A stretch of 64,000 nt of DNA from NCBI RefSeq assembly GCF_037975245.1, contig NC_092573.1, forward strand, positions 13,786,001-13,850,000, read 5' to 3'. Of this stretch, positions 1 through 61,586 are shown in pieces. Within the stretch, counting starts at the first letter, position 1. Each line of letters starts with the position of its first letter. The notes beneath the pieces are model-generated. The model was not told the origin of the DNA. It was given only the letters and a program-made list of their open reading frames with translations, and made no database searches. The stretch is from Apostichopus japonicus (Eukaryota; Echinodermata; Holothuroidea; Aspidochirotida; Stichopodidae). The position numbers and the translations under genes were made by a program.

Positions 1-1130
1 ACAGTAGAAATCCACTCCTGTCCTCATGCCTATGGTATTTTGCTTTTACATTGTATAGTACATATTACATACTGAGTATTGATGTAATGATGTGGACTAA
101 ACATGTACCGTTCATCAAAGTACTCCTAAATTTATAGAAATGCTGCAAATCACACGATGCTTAATAAACTTCATGATTACTGCATGTCCTTGAAAGTCTC
201 CACAGTCCACTATGACAAAACTTTAAGTAGCGCAAAAATTGGATTTTCTATGATTAAACTGACTTTAGGCTTCTGTGATGACCAACTTGGCCTCTGTTCG
301 TAATAAGGTGAAGAGGTTCTGTGAGTAACTCTGTTTATATATACTGTAGAAATGTATTAAAGATTTCTTTTAAGTTATTGTTCACTCTCTATGATAATAA
401 TATATATCCAGAGGGAAGTTCACTGTACAGTAGAGGTTGAACTCAGTCAGTTCAGGGGGAATGTTCATTTTGTGGCTGTAAACAAATACTGTAGACATCT
501 ACTGTACCAGAACCAAATCCTACAATTCCATCCCTCCGAGTCATCAAGACCTTTAAAGGATTTTCTGGTGGCTGAAATTGATTGCTTAGCAAAAGTGGTG
601 ATAAAGAATTTTTCTGAATCTTTCAGGCGAAAACCATATTCTCATTACTATTTGGTATCCCGAAGATATACAATTTTTCAAATTTTGTGTTATTTGTAAT
701 TATGCGTCTGGCAACAGTAGAATGGGTGATGTCATCAGGGCACCTCAGATGCAAATGTCACTGTTTGTCTTCATAACATGTCAATCACTTATCCACAGAG
801 GGAAAAATAATTCTACACAAAAGACACATACATTTCGAAGTACAGAGAACTATGACAGCTTTGCCAATTTTTATAAATGTATCAGCTGGTTTTGAGGATA
901 GATCAATAAGAAGAATATAATAGCCCAAATAAAGCTTTTTGAGGAGCATTTGACCATATGACATCAATGACCCCCTACTTCCTGGAACAAATAGATAAGA
1001 AATCCTAATATTTGGCCAAAGTCCAGAATATAGTTGTTTAAGAACTCCTTTGTTTAAAGAGCTGCAATTTTTATTCAATTGTAAAACTTCAAATGAATTG
1101 TGATAGGTTTTATATATTTTTTTATCAGAT
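1..1130. other. Left part of the UBE2R intron, no recognised feature
   Basis: AT-rich DNA below the third UBE2R exon. I looked on the minus strand for the next expected E2 exon (after the WNPTQSVR segment) and did not find it, so it probably lies left of this window. Open frames here resemble no family I know. Confidence 0.4.
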
Positions 1131-1637
1131 AACATCTTGTATGTATTGTTTTAATATTGTATTTAATTACTCGTTTTTATAAATATGTTTATATTTATAT
1201 TGGAATACATCAAATGAATTGAATAATGGGAGTAGTTGAACTTTGAAGGTTAGGCAACTAACATCTTGTATGTATTGTTTTAATATTGTATTTAATTACT
1301 CCATTTTATAAATATTTTTATATTTATATTGGAATAAATCAAATGAATTGAATAATGGAAGTAGTTGAACTTTGAAGGTTAGGCAACTAACATCTTGTAT
1401 GTATTGTTTTAATATTGTATTTAATTACTCCTTTTTATATATATTTCTATTTATATTGGAATAAATCAAATGAATTGAATAATGGGAGTAGTTGAACTTT
1501 GAAGGTTAGGCAACTAACATCTTGTATGTATTGTTTTAATATTGTATTTAAGTACTCCATTTTATATATATATATATTTATATTTATATTGGAATAAATC
1601 AAATGAATTGAATAATGGGAATAGTTGAAGGTAGGCC
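1131..1637. repeat. Tandem repeat, ~129-bp unit, about 4 copies
   Basis: The unit begins AACATCTTGTATGTATTG. Copies start at 1131, 1260, 1389 and 1516, so periods are 129, 129 and 127. Each unit ends in a segment like GAATAATGGGAGTAGTTGAA, and the last copy is cut after that. Variation is mostly in an internal TA-rich tract. It is AT-rich, lies in the UBE2R intron and shows no coding potential. Confidence 0.9.
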
Positions 1638-2503
1638 AGTCAAAATACTAGGTTACATTCAATCAACCATATCTGGAGTTAGACACAAGACATTGAGAAG
1701 CGGCTTTCAAATAGCAAGATGGAATATTTTTCTCTTCATTAAAATTCACATTGTTTTTTACCAGAAAATCCTCTTTTTAATCAGGGCTTGCACATCAGCC
1801 TGTCCAAATCTTCCAGGAACTGTATGACTCAAGATTGGGAATTAAACAAACTCAAACACAAGGCTTTGAGATATTTTTGCCAACTGTTGGGTAATGAGTG
1901 AGTGATTAACCCATTCCACTTGATACCGGAATGTTTGCCACCTGGACTTTCGTCAAAATATTAAACACAAATTTTACGGTAAACTGGGATATTGTAAAAG
2001 AAAAATTTAAAGGAGAAATAAACCCTAGTTATTTTTGCATCCATTCTTACGTTTTGACAGATGGTCTTTCCAGTAAAAGCAAAAGAAAAGCATAAAAATC
2101 CCTTCTTTGAGGTGAAAAAACGATTTGAATGTAGTTCATGTGTCGCGCCATTTTGTTTGAATTGAGCCAGTACCCGGATGTACCATTTCAAGACAAAATC
2201 GTTGCCAATCCCTAAAATAATTAGAATTGTACTTTCAACAATAGTAATGAATAAAATATCGATCAAAAATTATCTTTTGTCTTTATTGATCTGTAAAAAT
2301 GCTTAAAAAGTGTGTGAAATTTGTTATTGTAACGAGTATCAGTAGAAATATAAATTTTGGGATCTTTTCAAGGATTTGATTTTTAACGTGTTTAAATTAG
2401 ATTGCTTTCAACACGCAAACCGTACTCAGTCCTAGCGATAGCGTTACTTACGTCCATCATTGCACTCCAATTTACTGTAGAGCAAATATCTTCAAAAAAG
2501 AAA

Positions 2504-2900
2504 ATGGAAGCCTTTGGATTGGAATCGTATCTTTTCGAACCAGAATATTCAGAGGAAGAACTGAGACATCGAGAGGAGGAGTTTGTGCAAAGAATCAGTC
2601 GGCGACTGTTGGTGATGTTGGGTCGAATTCCGTTGCTGATACGAATACCGGTTCCGCGAGCCACTGCGAAGAATGGTGTCTGTGTGCACTCTCTTCGCCA
2701 TTGGAAAGCGACAAGGGGAGGGTATGCTGCTATGGATTGTTCGCGGAAAAAGCTCTGTTGAACGCAGGAGAATGTCTGACCAACAGACCTGAATTCTCCC
2801 AGATATTTTTGCAGCCAGTTCATTTAGAACTCTGTTTTGTAAATTTCTTGAGGTACAAGGAGAATCCTTTTCCTACGGCTGCTGAGAACATAACGAACAG
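2504..2900 (+). pseudogene. P2X7-type intracellular (zinc-binding) domain fragment, frameshifted
   Basis: The ATG at 2504 (context AAAATGG) opens a frame with ESYLFEPEYSEEE followed by an acidic Arg/Glu stretch, like the start of P2X7-C-type domain proteins that are numerous in marine invertebrates. The frame must shift by one base near 2590-2600. It then continues open with CEEWCLCAL, VCCYG, AGECLTNRPEF and ENITNR, giving the family's pattern of paired cysteines, an aromatic/His-rich core and a terminal ENRxYR-like segment. A possible splice donor (AG|GTACTG) lies at 2900/2901, but I see no following exon. The fragment sits inside the UBE2R intron on the opposite strand. A decayed gene copy is most likely; a sequencing error in a live exon is possible. 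Any function is inferred from the family only. Confidence 0.55.
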
Positions 2901-3979
2901 GTACTGTACACCTCAGTGAAAGTTCACTCTTTTCCGGATATTTTATTCCATCTGGAATAACGAAATATCTTTTTCCTTTTCTGCTCCCTCTTCCCCTCTT
3001 CGGTTAACACAACCAAAGGCTTGGCATTCGGGCATTTTAACCGGTGAAATAAGCGAAGCAAGATGCTCGAACATAGTGTGAATAGACTATAACTCGTATG
3101 CAAAGCTTCATTGTTTTGAAGTTACGATGTGGCTGGTGTATGTCACTTTTGAAGCGCCCCCAATCCTCATTTTAACAAAATGGCCGTTGTTCAAATGGGT
3201 AAAAAAAAATAATTGGAAAATTCGCGTAAAATTCAGGGAAACTATATTTTGCTTAGTAATTTCATAAATGGTATCAGAAAAATATCCCCTACCGCATGTA
3301 CGCTCCAAAAACCCAGAGTTTATTTCTCCTTTAAGTTTAACTTTGACACTATTTGGAATGAAAACTGAACAGACTGTCAGCAAATAACCTACATTTTATA
3401 GACTTTTTGTACCAAACAGCATCAATGTTTGTCAAAATCTTATCCAAATGTTATATTTAACCAGCTTTTTATGAGATTTTAATGAAATGATTTCAAGAAG
3501 GCACATATTATTGTGTGGAGTATGAAGCAATGTGTGTTACTCAACAATTTTTCTTTTTGGATATTTTAGACTAACCTGTAATATAGGGAAGAGTTTTGCA
3601 ATGCTACTTTAATCTGGCAATAAAGATGATGTTGCCAGCTCTTACCTTTTTAAATCATTAACGAGATAATCCATTGTTTTATAATCTGTTATTAAACACA
3701 GATCATTTGTAATTGACATGGCCCCTGCCTAACATTCAGAGCATAAAATACATTATTAGATTGTTGCATTAATATCACAACTGTGTAGAGTATTAAAGCG
3801 TAGTGACAGATCACCAGTCCGACGTGATAGTGAAACGGCAGCATAACAGTAAAAGGTTCAGCATGTCACTCTAAAAAACACACTGAGGATAGAGTGAGTG
3901 TGTTTCAGCTATGAGGAGACAGGTAAGCTGAATCTGATACAGTGTCAATCACTGTACATAATGCAGCCTATAAGCTTAC
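2901..3979. other. Intronic DNA, no gene seen
   Basis: Nothing coding was recognised, and no downstream exon for the P2X7-type fragment was found. A 17-bp motif at 3318-3334 (GTTTATTTCTCCTTTAA) is the exact reverse complement of 2007-2023 on the other side of that fragment. Confidence 0.4.
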
Positions 3980-4077
3980 CTGACACTCTGTGTAGGATTC
4001 CATCTCTCTGATGCCAACTCCCCACTTCTAGGGTCGTCTACGGGAGGATGGAGTATAGATATACAAACGTCGCCACT
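3980..4077 (-). CDS. UBE2R2: UBE2R coding exon 3 with the catalytic cysteine
   Basis: 98 bp between acceptor CTGCAG|AG and donor CAG|GTAAGC. Encodes SGDVCISIL with the active-site Cys92, then the [12 protein letters not shown] acidic loop typical of CDC34-type E2s, and ends WNPTQSV plus two bases of an Arg codon (phase 2). The next exon was not found in the window. Confidence 0.93.
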
Positions 4078-7000
4078 CTGCAGGGCAAGAGGAATACTTT
4101 AGTAAGAAAATATACAACTGTTTGTACGTAATAGTTTGATCCTCATACTGAAATATCCAACAATATAGTGCAGACATAACTTATGGTAATGATTGTTCAT
4201 TCAGTTCAAATGTTTGACACTCGTTAAAATTCAAATTCAAGATATTATTTATCAAGATTAATCCTTAATAAAACTATTCAAGAATATCTCTGATTGAGTG
4301 TCAGCAGATTGACTATTTAATACCGGAATCACAGAAGCTTGCAGCAAGGCCGATCAAGTGTTCAGGACCAACTTTCTCGACACAGTTTGCATCTTTCAAA
4401 ATCGAGTGCTATTTAAGAACGTTGTGTTTATTGGATTGGAAAGAATTTTAAGAAAACCCAACATTTTACTAATTTATGGTGTATTTCACAAAAATAGTTC
4501 AATTTTATTATAATGTATTTTGTTTTTCTTCTAACAGTCCTGTTTTATCTACCAATAGTTAATGTATTAAATATGAACCCCACTCAATGCCTCTCACTAT
4601 ATACCTCAGAGGTTGATTGTGTTGCCTAGATGCAAAACTATCACATAACGATTCCAAATAAAGCTCAAACATTGACTTTGGATACCACTTGATAGATGCC
4701 CCCAGTACATATGAATCAGATTTGCTGGCAGTATGATAAACCTAATCAAAGAATACAGATGAATACCATTGGAACAGAGGTTCGTCTAAATAGTGCAGTA
4801 GTACTTAACAGTGCACAGCTTGAGTTGATAAATCATGTGGTACAAAGATGCTCATGGTAACCTATGGTGTAACAGACAATTTTTGGACTGAGTAAGCTTT
4901 TATCTTTGCCACAACATGTCCTGTTCTGTAGTTTGAAGTGCACTTTGATTTTTCCTCTTTGAAGTCACTATCTGTCATTAACCTGTACAATCAAAACGTA
5001 TAGTATAAAGGTCTGCTCTCTCTATAAGACTTCTGTTGGCAGTTGTGCTAGAAGGAAACCTGTTAGCTTTAATAGCTTCGCTTTTTCTTTTTGTTATTAA
5101 TCTTTTGGTAAAATAATCACCTCACAGAGTACAAAGTCAGTGAGATTAAAAGAACACAAAATATTATTTTATCTAGCATGAGATGGCAGGAAAAGACCTG
5201 GTACTTTGCAGTGTAGCCAATGTTACACTAAATATATTAATGTGAAGCACTGCATATAGACTTGAGACTACATACATTCATGTCATACTGCATACAGACT
5301 TGATACAACATACATTAATGTGATAAAGCATACAGAGTTGAGACTCAACATTAATGTGATGAAGCATACAGACTTGACACTACATACATGAATTTCATAC
5401 CCATACAAACTTGATACTACATACATTAATGTGCTGAAGCATACAAAGTTGAGACTACATACATTAATGTGCTGAAGAATAAAAAGTTGAGACTACATGC
5501 ATTAGTGTGCTGAAGCATACATAGTTGATACTACATACAGTAATGTGATGCTGCATACTGTACAGAGTCGAGACTGGTACATTTATGTTATAATGCATAC
5601 AGAGTTGAGAATCTTAATACAAGGCAGTAAATCAAACAGTGTTTGACTAGGTTCCAGCGTAGATACTGTAGATATATCTAGCTATTGGATATGGTTTATG
5701 TATTCTAATACACTTAAATTCATATCACTGAGTACTTGCTGCTGATTTAGCTAGATACAGTAACATCTAAGACATTGGCAAATTTGTGAACTTCTTGAAG
5801 ACCGCCTCACCTGGATTTTTAAATCCACTACATGGCATGCTCGAAAAAAGTTGCATTCATCTTTTAAAACGGAACAGAACAGAACAACATTTACACAAAA
5901 CTGTAGACAAGATAAAATGATTAAAATGATGTTTAATCTGCCAATTTCGATGTTGGAGTGTACACTACTTTTTCCACAAAACTGTGGAATTATGATGACA
6001 GCTGATCTACAGTAGCTCTAGAACTTACATCATAAATATTTGGATGCCACATTTTCGTCAGGAATCTGAATGACGGTGGTGAATAGGGATAATCGTGAGG
6101 AAACTTCATTTCAGCCTGAAAGAGACAAAAACAAAATTGATTAAATGTTTCAGCAATGAAAATTCCCAGTAGATTATTTATAGATTATTTATTTATTTGT
6201 TTGCCACAAAAGTACAAAGTGGAGGAAGTCTTCCATCAAGCTTAAAAGCTTAACAATGTGGAAGACTCCCTGAAGAAAGAAAAGAAAAGAAAAGAAAAAA
6301 CAAAATATATATATGTGTATGAATACATACATAGATATAAGTACAAATTAAATGTTCAATATATATATATAAAGTAATTACATACAGGTATAATTTAGTT
6401 TTAGTCAGTAACTAGCTATTATTTCCTTACAAAACCACTTCTTAAAGGATGTGACTGACTTTTTACTCTTTAAATCGTTCATTAGAAGATTCCAGTAAAG
6501 TATAAATAGCTTATATAGGGTACAATCTACGATACTTATATGTCTCCTATGAACAGACACCCTTTGGTCTCTACCTAGTCAAACAAGATTGGTCACTTTA
6601 ACATTCCGTCCCAATGATCCCACAATTGGGTCATGACCGCATCTCCCCTTCCTCCATGGTCAAATTTTGTTGGACTACATGTAACTACAAGTGATATGAA
6701 ACTCCATTTGTTGACAGGAGACAAGTAGCAGAGATAGTTAAGGAAATATAGCTGGATTGACACAAGTAAAACTTGTGTAAAGTAAGTTGGCCTGACGTAT
6801 TGATCCTAGCAGGATCTTCTTCAAAGGCTAAATGACAAGTAACAGTAACAGAAGGGACAAAAACACACACAGAATACAGGCAGGTTAATGAGCATGGTGA
6901 ACACAAAGAGATAGATGTAAGGGGATTAGTAGACAAGGAATGGAGAGAAGAAAGAAACCAACAGCGGGAGAGGAGAGGTAGGAGATAAACAGTGGAGGGA

Positions 7001-10000
7001 CAAAGGGAGGATTATGGGAAGGGGGTAGAAATAAACTGGAGAAGGACAAAGAAAGAAAGGTGTGGGGAAAAGGGTGGAAGAGAGCTATGTGAAGAGGAGT
7101 GATGGGGAGGGAGGGCATGTCTTTCCTGAATGTTGAGCCCATGCGGTTGAACAAATAAAACTTCAAAGGTGAAAAAGGACTGTCAGTTGCATAATTCTTT
7201 TAAGGGCTGTCTGTCAACTGATCCCACATTTGATTTCACTGATGCCAAAATGATTAAGTACTAAGATTTGTTCACACATACAGTAATAACATTCATTAAA
7301 TTATACAGAGAACAGAAAGCTGGTGCTGTAGAGCTGCATATATATGTACATGACATGTCCATCAATGTTACCACATATGCCATAATCACATACACATACT
7401 GTAGGTACCTACAATATAGGTACAAGTACAAAACATTGAGTGAATTCCTCTTTCCATCTTCAAAGGTTGAAGATATATTTATTCCTAGCAGAACTCAACA
7501 GGGAGGAGGGAAACTTGGTAGAGACTTGCCACCTAGATGATTTAACTAGGGTACACTTTATAGTAGACTATGACATGAATTTAACACACATGTACAGTAA
7601 TATACTCTATTCAAGTAATAATAACAGGCTGCTTCTGTGCTAGGAAGTTACATTGAATGCAGATGATAGCTAAAGTCACCACCTAATCAACTGGCGTTTC
7701 ACTATAGGCCTACAAATAGCTAATATTACAGTTTGTCAGATACACAATATTATAGTTTATATGTAATGTAGGTGTGTACCTGTACAGGTTAATGTCCTTA
7801 GAGTAGAAATGAACTCCTTATGACATCACAGTCTCTTAGGCACTTACACAAACGTCCTAACAGCTAGCTACAACACATTTATGAAAACACTGGTCACATT
7901 TCCTGAATGTTGTATGTGAACTGTTTTGTAATGTAGCTATACAGTAGAGTCAAAGACAGAGTGGAAAGCACAAGATTACATCAGCCTGAGTTATGTCATT
8001 ACTTTAGCTATGATGGGTTAAAACAGTTTTGAGTAGAGTTTGATCAATCTGTTGATGAGCTGTCCATAGACCTCAAATCTCATATCCATTCTGTAGATCT
8101 CATTAGCTTGACTAGTTAGCCACGTCTTTTTTCAAAATTGAGGAGCAAAAGTTCAACATTTTGAAATGTCTATGTAGTTTTAATTAAACTGTGTTTGCTA
8201 TTGCCACTATGAAAAATGGCCAGACAAATGAATCAAGTTTTTTACCTAAACACTTTTTTACTTGTGAACCTTCACTTTGTAGAAAAATCTTGTAGAGAGT
8301 GTTACAGTAGTTTGATCAAATTTTAATCTTTTATTGAGTCACCAGTCAGTTTGGAAAGATTTCTGATAAATCTTCAAAAAAGAGCCTTTTGTAGGGAGAG
8401 AAACTGTATAAATGCCCCAGTTGGTGTAAGGAATGAAAACAGTCCCAAGTTAAACAGCCCTATGTTGTTACCTTAACCTATTGTAGAACTTGGCAAGAAT
8501 CACATTGTGAAAGCCTTGAGAATAGGTCATCACAATATAGAACATGTAAACATGGCCAGTACTGAATAACAAAGCTTCCTTCCTTGCAAACAGATTGTCA
8601 GTTAAATCATTGATTGCTATACAATGTACAGCAAATAACACATGGTCGTCAACTGTGTACTTCAAAGACGCAATATGTAATAAAAAACAAGGTCAAGGAA
8701 AAAGCACACCTTAAACTTTCCTTTCTTCCCTAAAAGCCATATTAACGTGTACACACGCTTTTAAATTGCTACAGACATCTTTGAATCCTGTTTTTACTTC
8801 TGAATAATTTCTCAAGTTTGTGATGATGCACTTTATAAGTACATGTACATCACGCTTGCAACTTTCACTGTAAGACCCCAGCAAACAAAGAGCTACTGCA
8901 CAGCTGACATTTAACGGTCATGTTTTACGTAGAAATAAAGACCATGTAGAGTAACTATCAAGCCTTGCACACAGTGACTTGTGTCAATGCTATGTATACA
9001 TGCTGTACAGTACTGTAGGTCTTACAAGCATGTACCGTAGAAATTAAATCAGGGAGTTGTTTAAAAAATCAACAAAGCAAAAGAGGAAACCATGAATTTC
9101 CCTCATATGTCACTGATCTCGTTTTAGCCTGAAGTACTTTGCACTCTGTCGTATAATTAATTTGTAACATTGCACATGGCTGCAATCATGTCATGTTTAC
9201 ATGTTATAGGTAGGGCACTCGAGCTCTATGGGACTACACAGTTAACAGATCTATTTAATACAGAACTGCATGTGGGAATAACATCAGACTGATCTTACTA
9301 TTGAAGGGTGTGAAGACTCCCGCAAAAGAAACGTCTAATGCCGGTAATCTGACCTACTGTAGTTTCGAATGAGGTGTAACAGAAGTGCTAGACACCACCA
9401 TCAATCTCAGAAGTACACACACAGCTTGCTACCGTCGGTAATTAGACGCTAACTAGTGTACAGTCAGTACATACAGACGGGTCAATACCCACAGCACAGT
9501 GTGCACACGATACAGCGATGGACATCTCAGGTCCAGCTAAAGATAACAAGGTATCACGTTTCATTACTGTCTGGCAGTGTCTGCATTTTGTAGGGGCACA
9601 AACAAAACGTCACTTGCAAGCAACAGAAAGTTAACTTTTTCAGATGGCCACACGCGGTTTGGGGCGAGTCTTCAATGCCTTGAAACCTGCAAGTTTACTG
9701 CAAATGATGTACAATAATTCTTACAGTCAATGCTTCATATGCAACCCTTTGAACTGGAAGGAATGGAGTTGAATAAATTACCTTGTAGTAACATGTGTTG
9801 TTTAATGGGTAGTGATACTATACAGGGGAAGGTGTATGGGGTGGTGCGTTAACCAACGATGCGGACCGTGTTATTGACCACCGTCCTGGGGAACTAATCT
9901 AATTTTGTATAATTATAGGCGCTATTTGCGACCATATCGAATTATTTGGTTACATTTGACAGTTTGTGTCATGGGCGTCAGCAGGTTTCAGAAAGTGGGG

Positions 10001-13000
10001 GGGACACTATACTATCTAAGCGGAGCGCCACCATTGGTTGGCGCGTAGCGTACCAGAAAATTTTGGGTACATAAGACCCCCTAGATCGCAGGAGACGGCC
10101 TTCCTGAGTCGTTTTTAGTTACATCAGAACCAGATCTGTGAGGAGAAATTTTGTCTCACAAAACTAAATTCCGACAGAAAGTACTGGTAGAAAGATGCCG
10201 TTCTGACACCAAGGGAAACGAATTACACAGCGTCCATCTCAAACGAAATATTTTCGGTAGTTTGGTATCATATAATACCCTGCATACAGGCAGAATACTG
10301 TCTGTAGGGCCTAAAATATATGATATTACCTTCCTGGTGGGGTCTTCGACTTGTTTTCAAGTTGAAATGCGTCGTTTTCTCTGATTCACAGTGTAGGGCA
10401 AGGGGAATTCCATTTCTGGCGAGAAGGGGTGCTTCCACAAAACACTCTAAAACATCGTTCAAACATCGCACAAACTTTTATCAGAGGTCTCGGACGAAGC
10501 GGGGAGGGTGAATATCGGAGGAAGGGGGATAAAGGGCCAAGCACTGTTCTAATTTCCAGTGCAATTTATTGATAATGATTCTTAAGTTAGATTCTACTTG
10601 AATCAGCTCAGCAATTGTGATAGAAAATCGCGCATATGCATGTGATTTTTTTAATAACTGCTCTGAAAAGTGGGGGGGACAAATGATATGATATCCCCTC
10701 CACTTTTGAAAGTGGGGGGGACATGTCCCCCCCGTCCCCCACCTGTTGACGCCCATGGTTTGTGTCAACGTCCCCCAACCCTCAACTCGCACTGCGAGTG
10801 ACTATTCCCAACACAAATAACTGGACCAGTGGAACTTGAGGGTGCACATTGTAGCTTGCTCTGTTGCTCCCCTAACCCCCCCCCCCCCACATATGGGGTT
10901 ATGCTATAACTTATCTTCTTCTGACTGTTAGAATACTCAATGTTACCATTACTAATAGACTGAAAATTCAATCCAAAATGCATCCTTCACAATACACTAC
11001 TGAGCTGTACTTACCAAGATTTGCTTTGTATACAGTACGTTACTAAATTTACCTGTGTTCTTTAAGCACAGAAGATTGAGGAAATTCTAACTGTAAGAAA
11101 TAAGAAATTATTAACCGTACGAAATAGGAAATTCTAGCAGTAAGAAATAGGAAATTCTTAACCGTACGTACGAAATAGGAAATTCTAGCAGTAAGAAAGA
11201 GGAAATTCTTAACCGTACGAAATAGGAAATTCTGTAAGTGTAACTAATATTACAGCTCTCCTGCTGTTCACCGAATTCAAACTTTGCCGACAATTACCAC
11301 ACGAGATAACTGTGAGCAACACACATACAATGAAAGGACCACTGGTGTAGTTAGTATTGTATAGTGCACATTATTCTCAGTCTCTGGCAAGTTCCTGGAG
11401 GAACAATAGACATGGAATTACCCTTTTGGATTCATGAACTACATATTTATCTACATATATTTTATTTAATTTACTTGTACTGTACCATAACTTCCAAGTT
11501 AAGTGAACACTAAAGATGGAATGTCAACTATTAACAAAAGTCAAATTTAATAGGGACTTGCTTTAAACCAAATTTATAACTTGCATGACTGTAACTGAGC
11601 AAAGCCTACCACCTACCCCCCCCCCACCCCAAGAAAAGAGGAAAAGATCTACATATATAAACAATGTGGGCTCAGCTGGAACTATTTAAACAAAAGAACT
11701 CTTTGACCAATTACCTTTGATATGGTATGATAAAACATGCAACAAAAAGATCAAAATATATGTTGAAACCAGAAAATGCCATGAACATTATGTACTTCAA
11801 TCAATTCCTTTAATACATCCTAAGCAAAGGAATATTTATTATGATTAAAATCATCTCCCAATCACGGTCTCGGTTTACAATTTTTTGTTTAGCTCACACA
11901 CTAACAGGAAGAAAGGTTAAGAATGCTTACTCATATTTGTACATCATCAAGAATTTCCAGGTTTAAACAGAGCAATCAAAAGCAATGATTTGTGTGGCAC
12001 TACTGTGCAGTTACTTTACTACTCATAGTGCTGAATGTGTACTATATTGTTCTGTACAGTATTGTGTAGATGCCACTACAGTAAACAGTAACTGCAGTGT
12101 ACAGTACAACATTGTTCAACATACAGTGTTGTACTGTACTGTAGAGAACTGTATTGTGTGGATGCCACTACAGTACACACTAACTGCAGTGTACAGTACA
12201 ACACTGCTCAACATACTTTGTTGAACTGTACATGTATGTATATACTGTACTGTAGAGTATTACATTGTGTGGATGCCACTACAGTACACAGTAATTGCAG
12301 TACAACTCTGATCAACATACAGTGTTGTACTGTACATGTACTATACTGTACTGTAGAGTGTTGTATGTTATGGATGCCGCTCCAGTACACAGTAACTACA
12401 GTGTACAGTACAACAATGTTCAACATACAGTGTTGTACCAGGGAGTTATGACAACTCCCTGGTTGTACTGTACATGTACTATAATGTACTGTAGACTGTA
12501 GAGTACTGTATAGTGTGGATGTCACCTCCGTGCACAGTAACTGTGCAGTGTACAGTACAACACTGTTCACCATACAGTGTTGTACTGAATTGTATTGTAC
12601 TATTAGTATCTATCACCAACTAACGACCTACAGTATATTGCACACAAATTGACCATGAAAGTATTACTGTGACTTTTATTTATGACTTTCATTCAAGAAT
12701 GGTCTATAAAACATTTTGCTCATACCATACAGTGGATGTTAATTAAGCTAGAAATGGTACATTATACACTGTAGGGGACAAAATGATGTGAATGTTAATA
12801 GATACATGTACATTGTCCATCTAATGTATGTATGTTGCAATATCCAAACACAAGTACTGTAGATCGTCTATACAAACTACCCACAGTAGACCATATATAT
12901 TTTAAGTTTTACCTTTGGGTCATTGAGTGAACATGATTGTTTCTGCTGATTCATGGTTGGATAAGAGTATTGCTTCAGAATAATTGGGTTCAGCAGACCA

Positions 13001-19562: not shown

Positions 19563-19860
19563 TAAAGGGAGTGAAGACTCGCGCACAAAGAAACGTCTGA
19601 TGCCGGTAAACTGACCTAGTTTCGAATGAGGTGTAACAGAAGTGTTAGACACCACCATCGATCCCAGAAAATACACACACAGCTTGCTACCGTCGGTAAT
19701 TAGACACGCGTGTACAGGGGATACCCATCAACACAGTGTACATCAGCGATGGACATCTCAGCAGGGAGTTGTTATGGAACTCCCTGATCTCAGGTCCAGA
19801 CTAAAGATCACGTTTCATTACTGTCTGCATTTTGTAGCGACAAGAAGAAAACATTTGAAC
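19563..19860. repeat. Dispersed repeat, copy 2 (carries a micro-palindrome)
   Basis: Second copy of the repeat at 9301-9600, in the same orientation, with small indels. It differs by a 25-bp palindrome plus a duplicated ATCTCAG at 19755-19793. Confidence 0.85.
19762..19786 (+). mobile_element. Micro-palindromic element, copy 2 (25 bp)
   Basis: Arms CAGGGAGTT and AACTCCCTG with loop GTTATGG. Exact 7-bp direct repeats ATCTCAG at 19755-19761 and 19787-19793. The paralogous sequence at 9521-9540 has one ATCTCAG and no palindrome, which is direct evidence of insertion with target-site duplication. Confidence 0.9.
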
Positions 19861-22642: not shown

Positions 22643-22909
22643 GTATTAGCTTCTTTCAAGTTGATCATTTGAAGTTTCGTAGCCATATTCCAATCTAAAT
22701 TGTCCATAAGTTGACTCCCCTGCAACCTTAATGTGCGAAGTTATTAGAGATCAAGGTTTGGTTTGGTTTTGTAATACTCGGTGTATGGATTCATAACATT
22801 GAGTACAAGAACCCTATTGTTTTTAATGGAGGTGTGTATAGCCACGTACAGTAGACTGACCTGTGTTATCATGCCATAGTGTTATTGTAACAGCTAATTC
22901 TGGTTATTC

Positions 22910-22933
22910 CAGGGAGTTGCTATGGAATCCCTG
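22910..22933 (+). mobile_element. Micro-palindromic element, copy 3 (24 bp)
   Basis: CAGGGAGTT, loop GCTATGG, then AATCCCTG: the right arm has lost one base. Flanked by exact 7-bp repeats GTTATTC (22903-22909 and 22934-22940). Confidence 0.85.
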
Positions 22934-23273
22934 GTTATTCTAACAAGCAGAAGTCTAGTGCATTGAAGTCATCGAAACCTCAATGCATTTTGCATTCTGG
23001 TTTCTGGAGTGGTCGCTCTGTAAGTTCGCGACCCCTGAAATGACATGAAGTTGTTAACTCTTCAAACTATCTTTAATTGCTTCCGGGAGATTCATGTAAT
23101 CTATAATTTGATAAATTACCTTTTATTACCAAAGTGGATCTCTCTTTTTTTTTAAAAAGACGGCTTTAAATGAATATGTTAAGCTAAAATATTTCATTCC
23201 AAGAAAGTTGCGATATCAAAAGGACATGATGTCAGTTCTCACTCAAACGGCCACTCATAAGATCGTCGAATAA

Positions 23274-23393: not shown

Positions 23394-26300
23394 GTAAGTA
23401 TGATAATAACTCTTCTTTAAGAAATTGAGCATTTAAAAGCAGTTTTTATTTTTTTTAATTGTTTGGTTTTCCACAGACCAGAACACACGAAGAGAAAGTG
23501 GGAAAAAAGTACAACTTGGAAATATTGCCGCTGGAAAGGTCAGTACATTTTGAACGTTAGTGTTGTTAGGCTAGACTGTACTGTTACTGTATGAGCCAGG
23601 TTTATTCAGTCAGTCATGGTTACAGTGTACCACGTGGGTGATGCGGATTAACACTGTTAGGATCGCGAAGCCTAGTCTAGGTTGTAAATTGTGATGCTGG
23701 TATTACTTATACTAGGCCTATGAGTAAAATGTAAAGACTAGGTCTAGGCTAGTAATATTGCTAGACAATAGTAAATACCAGTAGTGTACTACTGCAAGGC
23801 TAATAGTAATACTATTGGCTTGGAGGTGCCAAATTTCGTTCACCTCTGCTTTACAGTATTTTTCCTCTGACTCAGTCTGAGACTTTAATGAGACTGGGTT
23901 CATGCATGTGCTAACTCAGGAACTGACAGTTTTTGTACATTGTGGTGCACATTACAATAAATAACAGTAACACATAGGCATTCGTATGGTAACTTAGGGC
24001 TAGTAGAAGTATTCAGAAAAATTATGTTTTGTTGACCTAACAGGGAAGCTTGAAGTAAATTTTTGTTTCTCTGATGACTTATTTTAATCACAAAGGCTAG
24101 TCAAAATGCATTGCTAATGCTACAGTCCAGATACATTCCAACCTTTTCTAAATGAAATGAATTTTAAGTTCTGAAATTTTGAATTGTGTTATTTGAAATG
24201 TGCTTAAAGCAGCATTTTGCGTCCTTTTCTATGATTTTTCTCAACCTCACTGATTCCACTTTGCCATAACGAAATACATAGCTAGCTAATCTATTTATAT
24301 TTTTCTTCAAATGGTGGCATTAAAGTCGAAAAATTTGCAACTTCCAACTTTGTTGTTCTCCAAGATATTTTCTGTTGGGAACCCAATAACCTTGCCCATA
24401 ATATGAATATTTAAACACTACGAACGTCATTGACAAATACGTAATATAACACCACGCTTGATTTGTGTACAGTCTATATGGCAGTTGTACCAGGGAGTTC
24501 CATAACAACTCCCTGGTTGTACCAACACAAAGTCTTGAATCTATTTTTAGCAACGGCTCATAACTAAACCTGCATCTCTGATTGGTTGAATTCAAACTAA
24601 TGGGTTTGGCGGAATTGTATGCGATTAATTTTAACTGTGGAGTTTGTCGAGGACACTCTTCTCATTATCGACATAAATCCTTAGTTACTAGCTAATTAAC
24701 GCTCTTGGCAGGGTGAAACTTGGATGGTATCTTAGTTTGCTGTTTTATGATTGATACATGTAAAAAAATTGATGCACTTGTTATAAAGGTGGAAAAAAGC
24801 GACCCAATGCAAAATGCTGCTTTAAGCCTAGCCAACTCATTTCACAACATTGTAAAAAGAATGTTGGGTGGATGCCAGGAGCAAACATCAATTTGAAGCA
24901 TTTAATACTAAATGCAAAAATCATGAACTGTAACAAGAACAAGACTATCACTAGCCTATGCTGAAGAATCCAACAGTTAGGGTCACCCACTTTTCAGAGC
25001 ATGTATGCATTCAGTTTTACCCTTCTTTTATTAACCACCTTCCTGTTTCGATTGCAGATGATTGCAGATGTGATACGAACTTGCCTTGGGCCAAGAGCAA
25101 TGTTAAAGGTTTGACAATACTTTTGTAAACTCTTCCAAATTATAGTCATTAGCATTGATGTATCCTTGATGTTCACTGATATTGCAGGTCCATAACTAGT
25201 TCATAAAAATAAACCCTATGAAGAATTTCTTCCAAGCACAACAAGGTTTCCTTAAAGTTCCTATTGAGCCTTGTTAATTGATGGCAGTCACAAGTTGGCT
25301 GTGAGGTTTCAATATACACATTTCAGGAAGCATAGATACACTTATTCATTGAAAACGTTTTTTGCCTAACATTTTAGTAAACTTGTGTCTTGAAGTTAAG
25401 CATTAACTCTGGCATAAATTTACATGATATTTTTTGGTCAAAGCTCTGCAATTATGTGATAACATTATAAGTGCTTGCTTTAAGGTTTATTTCTTCAAAT
25501 TTGATAATCACCACATTACCCTTTTACAGATGTTGATGGATCCCATGGGAGGCATTGTGATGACTAATGATGGGAATGCCATTTTACGTGAGGTAAGTGT
25601 TTAATTGCAAAGTGTACATATGTGGTCTTTGATCGCCAGTGGCACCAGCTAAGGCAATCTGAGGGGAGGGGGGGGGCAACTAGGGGGAAAGGCATATTTT
25701 TTAAATTATTTTTGCAAACACATACAGTAGCACTGCAATTTTACGTGAAGCACACTACGTAACAATACACTGAAACAACATTTCGTGTGAGCGCATTGAC
25801 ACTGCGTAATGAAGGGGTTACCTTGGAGGACCAACTGAAAAATATCAAATGGGTATCAGGAGCAAACTTTTGGACTGTTCTCATGACTAATTGTTAACAT
25901 ATTTGAAATCATAATGGTGCTCGCTCCAATTGACTGTGTCCTTTCCATGGTGGAGGCAGAAATAGTAGATGTGGGTGTCCAAATTCTTACCACTTGGGGC
26001 AACATGATGCTGAAGGCATTGCTATCGCCAAGCGATTGCCCCACACGGCGGGGGTCAAGGGGGCCCGTCTTAGCGGCCCTTGTGGGGTTTCATGGCGCAG
26101 TGCCACTTAAAAACTTTTTGAGGTATGGGAGGGTTAATTGCAAGCTGTTTATTTAGTCAATACAAGATTTGATAGGTGAAATTAGGGAAAGTCTCTAAAA
26201 AAAAAACCCAAACATTTTCACCGTTGTCTTATTTCTGTAACTCTGTATATTTAGTGAAAACTTTTCACAGCTTCATGTATGTTTTGCAAGCTGTGCACGG

Positions 26301-38300: not shown

Positions 38301-41300
38301 CATGTTCTACATTAATCGACTGTTAAATTGACCCAGTTTACCTATTTAAAATGAACATGAGTTTCTTTCGTCAGGTGCACATGTGCGCCTGTGTAAACTG
38401 TGCACATGTGCGTATAAATTTCTAATGGTAAATCTTACCGAGGGTCAAAAAAGAAATATTTTGTTTTTACACAAAAAGAGTAAGGAAGATAGGCATTGGA
38501 TATTATTTCTATATTTTAAGAGTTATGGTTAACAACTACATGAAATATCATGATTGAAGAATTTGACATTAAAAGTCGATGTCCCTCTGGAGAGATCCAT
38601 TTCCTGCTGCAGCTACCAAATGTTCATGAACGAATGCAGTCGCAAGTTCACTAATACTTGTTCTCGTAAGACATTTGACAGTTCTATAAATCTACTACGT
38701 TTCGTCTTTGTCTTTACAGATACTTTACCTTTGTGACCGAATGTAAAAATCCAAAGGCTTGTACCATTCTGTTACGGGGAGCCAGCAAAGACATTCTCAA
38801 CGAAGTGGAGCGAAACCTTCAGGATGCCATGAACTCCGCCCGTAATGTCATGATAGAACCTCTCTTGGTTCCGGGAGGCGGAGCTGTGGAAATGGCGTTG
38901 ACACATGTAAGTCACTACGGTGGGCTGTCGGCTGATTCAAACTCATTGACAGATGAAAAGCAATGTATAAATGTTAATGTCATAGATAGATCAATTATAT
39001 GGAAGAAACCTCGGTACAGAACCTCTTTGGGGTGATTTTAAGAGACAAAAAATATCAATGCTGTTTGATACTAAAGTCCTATAACAATGTATTGTTTATT
39101 TACTTTTCTTGTCAAGATTTGATTTCAAATAGTAAAGTGAAATTAATGGAATACCTTGATATTTTATTAATTGCATTTAAAACATGTTTATTGAATGTTT
39201 CCATGGAAAGCAGCCAGTGATGCAATGACAAGGAGTGAATCAAATTCATGAATTACTCGCTTGTTAAAACTTTATTTGTTGAAAGCGTCTAGAAGGTTAT
39301 GGTAGGGTGGTCAGATGATCATTTTGGGTAATATTTTGAAGTATATCTTGAAGGTTGACAATCCACATTGATCAGAAATTCATCATTTAATTTTTTTTTT
39401 TTTGGTCATTCAAGACTAAATTTCATTTTCCTTTCCAAATGCACATTTCCCCGAGTGTGTTATAACTTGTGTTTTGCCTCCACACCAGGCCTTGACCGAA
39501 AAAGCTAAAACGATCACAGGTGTTCAACAATGGCCTTACAAGGCAGTTGCATCGGCGTTGGAGGTCATCCCTAGGACCTTGATACAGAATTGTGGCGGTA
39601 ACACCATCAGGACATTGACTGCTCTTAGGGTTAGTTTTATTCCTACATTATCAGATTAACTCCACTTATTTAAATGATCAAGCTCGGTGCAAAATGTGAA
39701 GTTTGCATTTTTGGATGGTGTATTTGATATCATTATATCTGCAATAATTTATCCATTGTCGCATAGCAAATTGACATTCAAATTGCTTTACAGGTGCATA
39801 TATTTATAGCTGGTTGTAAAATTGTTCTAATGCTAATACCACTGTATACTGTACTCCATATTATGCTACAAAGCACTTGTACTGTAAGTATGAACAGTTC
39901 TGAACCTTAATCTAATAGAAAAGGGATATTCATACTGCTCGTACTGTTGCTTAAAGGTGCATTGAAGCATGACATGCAATTATAGTTTATAGAAATTGTC
40001 AAAGTAGATGTATAAGAGACTTTGGAATGAATGAAAGGGGTTATATGTTACTTATAAGATTATCTTGCTTTAACCTAGGCTGTGTGAGACTGGGAACCCT
40101 ACATGCAACATGGCATATTATTTAGCAATTACCTGATGATCAGAACTGAATTTACCTTGGAATATTGTGACGACCAAAACAGCATGATAGAAGTTTGCAA
40201 ACACCTTGTTTTATGTAATAAGAACAACTTTGGGGATCATTCTTTACTATGATGCCAAATTATGCAGACCAACCAACTTTCCCATCAGGCAGCCGTGCAA
40301 GAAAATGATTTTTTTTTTTTTTTTTTTGAGCGACTTCCTTCTAATGAATCTAGAATAGCCCTGTCATATGGTTCGGGTTGTAATTCTCAAAATATCTTAA
40401 TGCTCACTGATGTTAGCAGCAGCTACCCAATCTTGAAAATGATAATGGACTTAATACTTTCTAATTGCAGGCTAAACATGCTGACCCTAGTAATTTCTGC
40501 TGGGGTATCGATGGGGAAAAGGGCACCATTGTAGATATGAATGAGCTAGGCGTCTGGGACGCCTTTGCAGTGAAAGCTCAGACGTACAAGACCGCTCTGG
40601 AGGTGAGTAAGACTTGATGCACCCTTGAGTTGTGTGTCTAGATGGCTTTAGACACTGTACCTGCTACTTAAGGCAGCATTTTGCGTTTGGTCGCCGTTTT
40701 CTACTTTTTTGACATGTCCATCAAGTTTTTTACATATATCAATCACAAAACAGCAAACTAAGATATTAGCCAAGTTTTTCCCTGTCAACAACGTTAATTG
40801 GCGAGTAATTAAGGATATTTGCAGATAATGAGAAAAGTGTCCACGACAAATTCCACATTTAAAATTAATCGCATACAGTTCCCCCAAACCCACTAGTTTG
40901 AATTCAACCAATCAGAGATGCAGGTTTAGTTGTGAGCCGTTGCCAAAAATAGATTCAAGACTTTGCGATGGTACAACCAGGGAGTTGTTATGGAACTCCC
41001 TGGTAAAACTGCCATATAAGTTGAAAGTTGCAAATTTTTCAACTTTTATGCCACCATTTGAAGTAAGATTTAAATAGATTAGCTAGTTATGTATGTCGTT
41101 ATGGCATAGTGGAGTCAGTGAGGTTGAGAAAAATCATAGAAAAGGACGCAAAATGCTGCTTTAAAAGGGATATTCTGGTCACTAAAGTTGATTACTTAGC
41201 AAATATTGCTGAAAATTATGATATTTTGTAATGTATTTGGCAACATTAGAATGGAATATGTCATCAGGTCAATTCAACTGAAAATGTCCTTGTTTGTCTT

Positions 41301-59100: not shown

Positions 59101-61430
59101 GGAAATGGGTGTCACAATTCCCAAGAATACAAGGGCGTTTTATCCGAGACTCACTGTGTCTGACAAAATCTGAAAAAAATATATTTCGCTGAAGAAGAAA
59201 ATTAATGGTTATAGACCTTCATTTCAGCTGGTGAACTAGACATGAGAATAATATATAACTATACAACACATGCGGACGGACAAGAACATTCTTAAAATTC
59301 CTGGTACAGCCTATATATGAGAATTCATTACACTACTGTATCATCCATTTACACCCATAAACGTCTCCAATCACAATTCCTTATACAAAAAAAAAACTTC
59401 TCTCTCGATAGAACTTCTAAACTCTTTGGCAATTAATTTCTGAAAAGACATACCGTGCAAGCTTTCTTAATTTAATACCAGCAAGATCACCACTTTAGGT
59501 GACCATGCATAATCTTCATAAACTTCCGAATTTGACCATTTAAATACAGAAGTCGTTTGAAGTATTTTAATTCGTGGTCAAAACAGTAGTCTCTATCTAC
59601 CAGTCGTTCCTTGTATGAATAAATATCTATCAATGACTTTAATTGGTTTTCATTTTGAAAGATAATTGCTAACCGTTGAAAGAGTTTGTTATACTTATAT
59701 TACACGATGACCAAAAACTTTCGACTCTTTTAAGACTCGAGCTGTATAGTTGTGGCCTAGTCTTTTATCATGCGTTTCAGTAGCTTGATTGCTCTATCAG
59801 CTGTTGTTTTAGTCTGCAGAGGGAGTTGTCCTCAGCAGTCACGGGAAGCGTCGTACTAATAATGATTCCATCGGCTTGATTATGGGCTCATCTTTTATTC
59901 GTAACTGTAGTAGTAATAGTAGTATTAGTACACATAGCGATGCCGTATAAAATGTTCTGTTTATGAAGATATCCACGAAGGCCTACTTCGTCCCTTTAAA
60001 TCGGCTTCAGAGAGGCTGTGTCGTCTGTTAACAAGGGCGACCTATCGAAGATTTAAAAAAAATACATATAAATATACATATATGGATAGCTTTATTCACT
60101 AAACAATAAAACACGAATTTCGCTATTCTTGACAATACCATATACAAGTCCTGACGGGCAAGAAAGCTCTAGCTGAGACAGACTATTTTAAATTCAAGTA
60201 AGTTATTATGCGGATCAAGAATTTACTTCTGAAGAGGAAATCAGTAATATTAGTTATCATGATATACCATCAACATTTTTTCATTCAATTCTTGTCTTTT
60301 ATGTTTATGTATTGTTAATTTTTTTTCTTTTTTTCATACTATTCTTACACTTTTTCGTTATTATTATCTCTGATTCCTAAAAAGTTTGCCGACTTATTAC
60401 TTCAAAGTCCTCTTGTTTCTTCATTATTGCCATCATCAAATTTAAAAGGGAAACAAAAATCAAGAGTGCATGTAGAATGGAGACAGGTAAGAGAGGAGTA
60501 AAAATAAATACATAAAAACCAACAGATAACCTATATACGGTGAAAACCATCACCACCACCTTCACTGAGCCATTTTCGTCAATCAAAATTGATATATTTT
60601 CTTCCATGTCTGGGAATTATTAGATTTTTAAGGCTTTAGGGACAAACAGGAGAGTATTTAATAACCGGAAGTGTATCTATGATTACTCTCCAATGTTCGG
60701 GCTTTTTATATTGTCTTTATTAACAGTCGAATTTTCATGACTTTCCCTCGTTTTACAAAAAAAAAAAAAATTGTATGTACAATTCTTAACGTTGTATGCA
60801 ATCACGAAAATAAATGTCCATATAATCTAGTTCGGAGAAAATCATTGTTTACTTAACACTTTTCCAAACCTATATGGTACTTCAGCTGTAATTTTTGTTT
60901 TATACTGTAGTCTGTAGTGTATGCGTTGTAGGAGTATACTGCAGTAATAAATAGATATTTGCACAAAGTGACAACTTTCACGTATCTGTCATATTTAATA
61001 CATTACTAGGATTCAACAGCTGCTCATAAATCGCGTATGAACAAAATATTGATTGTTCTTTTTTTTCTCTCGATAATTGCGCAATATATATCATACATCG
61101 AAAGCATGATGGGTTTTTTTTTCTTGGTGCATTGGTAGAATTCATTGCTTAATAAAGCATGTAAAGGAAATATCCCTAGCTATGTTATTGTAATATTGGC
61201 AGAATTAACTGGGAACTTATCCGGGTAGGGGTGGGGAGGAGGAGGGGGATAAGAATGGTGGAGCAAGGTGAATATAGTAAATCCATTTAACCAAATGACC
61301 TTGTGACACATGAAATATGGGGAAAGCCAATTCAACATGGAACAGAAAAGTAGCAGGCCCACTGCCATTCCCTACACCAAGTATCCCCTTCACAACCCCA
61401 CCTATAAACCCCACCCATCTCGTGGGTAAT
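56195..61430. other. AT-rich intergenic or 3'-flanking DNA, no gene seen
   Basis: Many A and T runs. A last KSR exon with stop codon is expected somewhere here on the minus strand, but I could not identify it. Confidence 0.4.

Positions 61431-61586
<156 letters not shown>

Follow-up and report, generated by a model that had tools for sequence, protein, structure and literature searches.

We conclude that the short palindromes dispersed through this sea cucumber genome are very probably end-joining footprints of a P-superfamily transposon that duplicates 7 bp of target and is excised by a staggered cut of ~18 nt, rather than copies of an ultra-small mobile element, as the original prediction had it. 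On this reading we call them scars below. All five palindromes reported for the window (the whole 64,000-nt stretch of Apostichopus japonicus DNA analysed) are found where they had been placed, at 12439, 19762, 22910, 24491 and 40978. Their flanks also read as first claimed, with exact 7-bp direct repeats at four of the five and a 6/7 match (GTACAAC/GTAAAAC) at the fifth. They do not, however, represent five independent events, as the palindromes at 24491 and 40978 are the same one in two copies of a larger repeat. With 3 mismatches allowed, the 25-bp pattern matches the window 3 times, whereas 100 shuffles gave 0.01 matches on average. The features of the window that bear on this are the following, families A and B being larger repeats discussed further below:

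9513..9537, + strand: family B copy with its target site unfilled (one ATCTCAG, scar absent)
12439..12461, no strand: putative scar of 23 bp, 7-bp duplicates GTTGTAC at 12432-12438 and 12462-12468
19762..19786, no strand: putative scar of 25 bp in abundant repeat family B, duplicates ATCTCAG at 19755-19761 and 19787-19793
22910..22933, no strand: putative scar of 24 bp, duplicates GTTATTC at 22903-22909 and 22934-22940
24204..24826, + strand: family A copy with scar, matched stretches 24204-24350 and 24475-24826
24491..24515, no strand: putative scar of 25 bp in repeat family A, duplicates GTTGTAC at 24484-24490 and 24516-24522
40667..41164, - strand: second copy of family A
40978..41002, no strand: putative scar of 25 bp, the same as that at 24491, in the second, inverted family A copy, flanks GTACAAC/GTAAAAC (6/7)

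The two family A copies are joined by inverted matches of 352 nt (88%) and 147 nt (93%), which hold the scars at 24491 and 40978 at one position, and three of the five window scars lie inside larger repeats. When compared with repeat families A–C, the flanks of the scar at 12439..12461 resembled none of them. The unfilled family B site at 9513 and the filled one at 19762 are ~10 kb apart, and the junction at 22910..22933 can be read as an 18-nt end with one substitution followed by 6 nt of the other end. Further along the window (61429-61586) there is a long, near-perfect, loopless inverted repeat in many shifted registers, which is probably a simple repeat tract.

The whole assembly (671,581,487 bases in 35 contigs) was then searched. 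The exact 25-bp arm pattern occurs at 695 sites and its reversed counterpart at 0, and the same arms with a loop of 0-30 nt (18-48 bp in total) occur at 1981 sites, copies carried along by repeats included, while the reversed pattern with such a loop yields 1. Scoring by script covered 70 two-armed sites (at most one substitution per arm) in the window and in fetched loci, which make up a non-random sample, having been retrieved by patterns for the scar or the scar end; the scar at 22910-22933 was left out because its right arm fails the rule of the script. Judged by flank strings, 17 of these sites belong to family A, 7 to family B, 9 to family C and 37 to none of them, although L103, counted among the 37, is similar to family C. 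When the flanking 7-mers were tabulated, as the original prediction had suggested, they proved identical in 25 of the 37 sites outside families A–C, matched at 6/7 in another 7 and matched more poorly in 5, whereas mispaired flanks reached 6/7 in 37 cases out of 1332. The 25 exact duplicates reveal a target preference of (A/C/G)TnnnA(C/G/T), with T at position 2/A at position 6 in 94%, in a profile that was counted on both strands and is symmetric by construction. Unfilled targets are abundant: the family B site without an insertion is present in 3038 + 3079 copies within 3 mismatches genome-wide, and five of the 17 seemingly "empty" family A places are plainly unfilled. The remaining 12 were discarded, as they end in CCA(A/G)(A/C/G)G(A/C), which is the ending expected of a mutated scar. 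The palindromes arise by insertion with a 7-bp duplication, a claim confirmed by the unfilled sites together with the flank statistics.

Copying of larger repeats accounts for a share of the sites. Among the first 24 exact 25-bp sites of the 695, all of which were fetched, 14 occupy one position of family A, 3 belong to family B and 7 to neither; family C (L079 and its kin) carries a 33-bp form, and one family B copy, L094, has a scar of another form. It could be argued that every copy sits in a larger repeat family and was merely copied with it, and this does hold for the 17 sites just named and for three of the five in the window. It is hardly credible for the whole set, given that 7 of the 24 and 37 of the 70 sites lie outside families A–C, with varied duplicates, and that more than 6000 family B copies are unfilled, and it was rejected as a full account. 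The same figures bear out the claim that the palindromes are dispersed through the genome at many sites outside any one larger repeat. Some scars were thus multiplied by copying along with larger repeats, while the rest are unexplained by copying; for those of families B and C, either copying with the repeat or repeated insertion at one place may apply. In five family A loci (L003, L010, L013, L014 and L023) the two duplicates are reverse complements of each other (GTTGTAC on the left, GTACAAC on the right), so that the palindrome is extended, as though a hairpin had undergone correction against itself. At C13:7714020-7966164 and C20:30323269-30578519, ends followed by AACAT recur tens of kb apart on one strand (L109 was read); at the six sites that were read, end plus AACAT belongs to the 33-bp form, and the spacing suggests large tandem duplications on these two contigs.

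The scar forms align as a single ~18-nt end, CAGGGAGTTGTTATGGAA, variously trimmed and joined to its own inverted copy, with a total length of 21-36 bp. Arms of this end extend to ~18 nt at most: at sites where the arm reaches 18 nt the next base varies (C, T or A), and an arm of 19 nt is possible where that base is C. With a loop of 17-47 nt (35-65 bp in total) the arms occur at 45 sites in the whole genome, as against 1981 at 18-48 bp. Of these long-loop strings 27 were classed by eye, as 9 neighbouring scar pairs, 3 joins of 18+17 or 18+18 nt (35 and 36 bp), 2 near variants of these and 10 joins with insertions, while 3 (on C3) fell into none of these classes.

Junctions vary from site to site. 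Fifty of the 1981 loop-pattern sites were listed, and 34 of them are plain joins of trimmed 18-nt ends, the other 16 carrying a mismatch or filler. The commonest exact string, of 25 bp, was present at 10 of the 50 listed sites (4 in family A, 1 in B) and the second commonest, of 28 bp, at 7 (flanks read at one). An untrimmed 18-nt end allows 18 possible joins, and exactly two of these, the 25- and 28-bp forms, use a 2-bp (AA) microhomology, which explains why these two recur; the 26-, 27-, 29- and 30-bp forms use 1 bp. Not predicted by microhomology, and less well explained, is the recurrence of the 33-bp form (present at all 6 sites fetched, with five different duplicates) and of the form GGAACGACTCCC / CAGGGAGTTGTTATGGAACGACTCCCTG (L084, L090, L092 and L095). 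Insertions that copy the end were seen in L083 and in strings among the long-loop sites. Excision scars should vary, the original prediction had argued, and these palindromes do vary, in trim lengths, insertions and one-armed forms.

Of 62 loci retrieved with one-end patterns (L025-L054 and L079-L110), 7 are one-armed. In five of them (L028, L043, L048, L052 and L053) the insert consists of 15-16 nt of the end, directly abutting an exact second duplicate, and in the other two the duplicate matches at 6/7 (L040, with 15 nt, and L099, with 18 nt). Such sites fit a break that was cut at the boundary on one strand and inside it on the other, with one tail lost, and they do not fit a mobile palindrome. 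A non-autonomous element of 23-25 bp, moved as a unit by a transposase binding both arms, is accordingly very unlikely. It would gain from the identical 25-bp, 33-bp and GGAACGACTCCC forms found at unrelated sites with 7-bp duplicates of their own, the latter two forms having no microhomology to account for their recurrence. Against it stand the one-armed copies with proper duplicates, the many junctions made from one 18-nt end, the scarcity of sites longer than 2 x 18 bp and the insertions that copy the end; 25 bp would also seem too small for an 18-nt staggered cut. The mobile copies of a MITE or ultra-small element possess both inverted ends, and here copies with one arm are flanked by duplicates. 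The view that a 25-bp unit spread as such thus had to be given up. A MITE derived by internal deletion was also rejected, as no common internal sequence was seen and few sites exceed 2 x 18 bp.

One-armed forms would be produced directly by abortive integration, in which an element end is joined to the target and then clipped, leaving end fragments between the duplicates. The 34 plain joins among the 50 listed sites nevertheless carry parts of both ends and would need two facing cut ends, and we regard this explanation as extremely unlikely.

We propose instead that the palindromes are excision footprints formed in the following way. A P-superfamily DNA transposon with ends CAGGGAGTTGTTATGGAA... 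would insert at (A/C/G)TnnnA(C/G/T), with a 7-bp duplication of the target. The transposase excising it would make a staggered cut, at the element boundary on one strand and ~18 nt inside on the other, so that each side of the donor break would keep an ~18-nt single-stranded copy of the element end. End joining would then fuse the two tails, using short microhomologies where these are on hand, to leave the duplicate, up to 18 nt of the end, up to 18 nt of it inverted and the second duplicate. The few insertions copying the end would reflect an alternative (polymerase-theta-like) route, for those joins at least; only the insertions point that way, since microhomology of 1-3 bp is typical of classical end joining, as described in the parts of the fly study consulted (PMC2895639). 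Scars inside other repeats would, at least in part, have been multiplied as those repeats were copied. We infer the polarity of the cut strands and the repair enzymes, as well as the parentage of the element on contig C3 described below, or of its kin.

The end followed by G or T occurs at 203 sites genome-wide, and among the 100 of these that were listed, ends face each other 0.1-15 kb apart at three places. Two of the places, on C2 and C12, are candidates of ~4.5 kb known by position, each with a second copy of the end exactly 225 bp inside one side; neither P profile (PF12017 or PF21787) matched inside them. On C3, exact 19-mers face each other at C3:19626415 and C3:19638456, 12,042 bp apart. 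A profile search (56 matches) placed PF21787 within this pair at C3:19630435-19630869 (E 1.1e-27), in a 628-aa frame without stops; a further 628-aa frame lies at C17:23631930, beyond the end sites listed. A P-type transposase domain, of the RNase H type, is thus positioned between facing exact ends, the assignment to the C3 pair being by position. Placing the 100 listed positions at random 20000 times gave at least 3 facing pairs in 0.015% of cases, compared with five pairs observed at three places, in a test that treats the sites as random points, although scars may cluster more. A pair enclosing a P match arose in 0 of 20000 trials, with 10 of the 11 matches that these contigs carry taken into account, the extents of C6 and C11 guessed and C13 ended at the last listed site. 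The C3 element, a candidate known by position, is probably the parent.

Facing scars can mislead in such a search: a facing pair on C15 (8.1 kb) was rejected as parent because it proved to be two separate 33-bp scars. The end was absent from the 10 kb around each of 12 PF12017 loci, apart from a 29-bp scar in L077. Intact copies appear to be few, because the sequence beyond the end in 15 loci lacking a full second arm shares no common match starting at the end. The larger transposon with the same termini that the original prediction advised looking for is probably represented by the C3 candidate, by position; the C2 and C12 candidates are without a P profile match.

Other P-like elements were encountered on the way. 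L072 (C17:17638700-17648699) contains a P-like element of 8.0 kb, at 63-8062, which is bounded by 8-bp duplicates ACCGAGAA and has inverted ends of 20 bp, CATAGAGCTTAATAATAAAC, that match perfectly; its open frame of 764 aa carries PF12017, PF21787, PF21788 and PF21789. Used as a control for scars, it gave no support, since 4 sites fit the reversed pattern and 2 look like scars; one of these 2 consists of 9 nt plus the full 20-nt end. A second P-like family (L067-L071, on C13, C16 and C17) has copies ~84-98% alike in matched stretches and begins CACTGATCTACACTA in L067 and L070. The left flank of L070, GTGTTAT, has a form like that of the 7-bp scar targets.

The P superfamily is marked by 7- or 8-bp target duplications, a palindromic target preference and ends in CA...TG, the last generalised from Drosophila P and Pdre2. 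Here the duplication is 7 bp (exact in 25 of 37 sites), the target has T2/A6 at 94% in the both-strand count, and the ends read CAGGG...CCCTG. Target duplications of hAT elements are 8 bp long; the original prediction had rightly doubted a hAT origin on this account, and hAT was rejected, the duplicates here being 7 bp. Dada elements make 7-bp duplicates on inserting into multicopy small RNA genes, according to the portions of the source seen (PMC8869645), and the diversity of scar duplicates and flanks speaks against insertion of this type. Excision scars left by a transposon of some other superfamily with 7-bp duplicates and a long stagger, rather than by a P-type element with CAGGGAGTT ends, are unlikely. 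That reading draws on the C3 candidate being known by position, and on the chance that the long staggered cut, which to our knowledge is known only from Drosophila P, occurs in other groups as well. Against it are the P-type RNase H domain that facing exact ends enclose and the palindromic 7-bp target preference, which is shared with Galileo of the P superfamily.

If the palindromes are P-type footprints, a single genome provides many natural examples of how one kind of cut, with the same ends, was repaired in different places, and a record of repair from an animal outside the usual models. The case would also illustrate how a family of scars may be taken for a mobile element and wrongly annotated as a tiny MITE. 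Scars outnumber candidate intact copies by hundreds to one (1981, hitchhiking copies included, vs 3 places among the 100 of 203 end sites listed). It is conceivable, if distinctly improbable, that the parent was excised so efficiently that excision was a regular, perhaps developmental event, the element being retained in certain lineages or stages and removed in others, with scars as its sole trace over most of the genome. Should the retained end of ~18 nt be confirmed, the unusually long stagger of Drosophila P would extend to a deuterostome relative with 7-bp duplicates.

In the literature searched, as far as its accessible text goes, a genome-wide scar family of this sort is not described, which is no proof of absence. 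The closest parallel is Drosophila P, whose transposase cuts 17 nt inside on the 5' strand, according to the sections consulted (PMC7776569); the ends retained here, as judged from junction sequences, reach 18 nt. In Rad51-deficient (spn-A) flies, with and without polymerase theta, one 2-bp join made up 14 of 68 independent P excision junctions, and blunt joins, templated insertions and long microhomology collapsing the scar onto the duplicate were also recovered; in the same extracts, 1-3 bp microhomology is given as typical of classical end joining, and longer microhomology and insertions of >3 bp are tied to polymerase theta (PMC2895639). As far as those extracts show, the footprints are alike in their order of duplicate, end tail, inverted tail and duplicate, and in their recurrent 2-bp joins. 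They differ in that tails are 17 nt and duplicates 8 bp in the fly, against ~18 nt and 7 bp here, and in that the fly junctions come from laboratory animals, whereas ours are about two thousand sites, part of them repeat copies, in one assembly.

Zebrafish Pdre2/THAP9 is, like the element proposed here, a P-like transposon in a deuterostome, but it has 8-bp duplicates and 13-bp inverted repeats, CATACCTGTCAAC, according to the passages seen (PMC10983969). Galileo, a P-superfamily element of Drosophila, is described in the parts of two reports consulted as making 7-bp duplicates with the palindromic preference GTANTAC, and 8-bp duplicates in three D. willistoni copies (PMC4168063, PMC2775673). 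It differs from our case in its long inverted repeats, and those parts describe no comparable scar family for it. The likeness lies in the 7-bp duplicates with a palindromic preference, (A/C/G)TnnnA(C/G/T) here, and the P superfamily, with Galileo as a 7-bp-duplicating member, fits the palindromes better than hAT.
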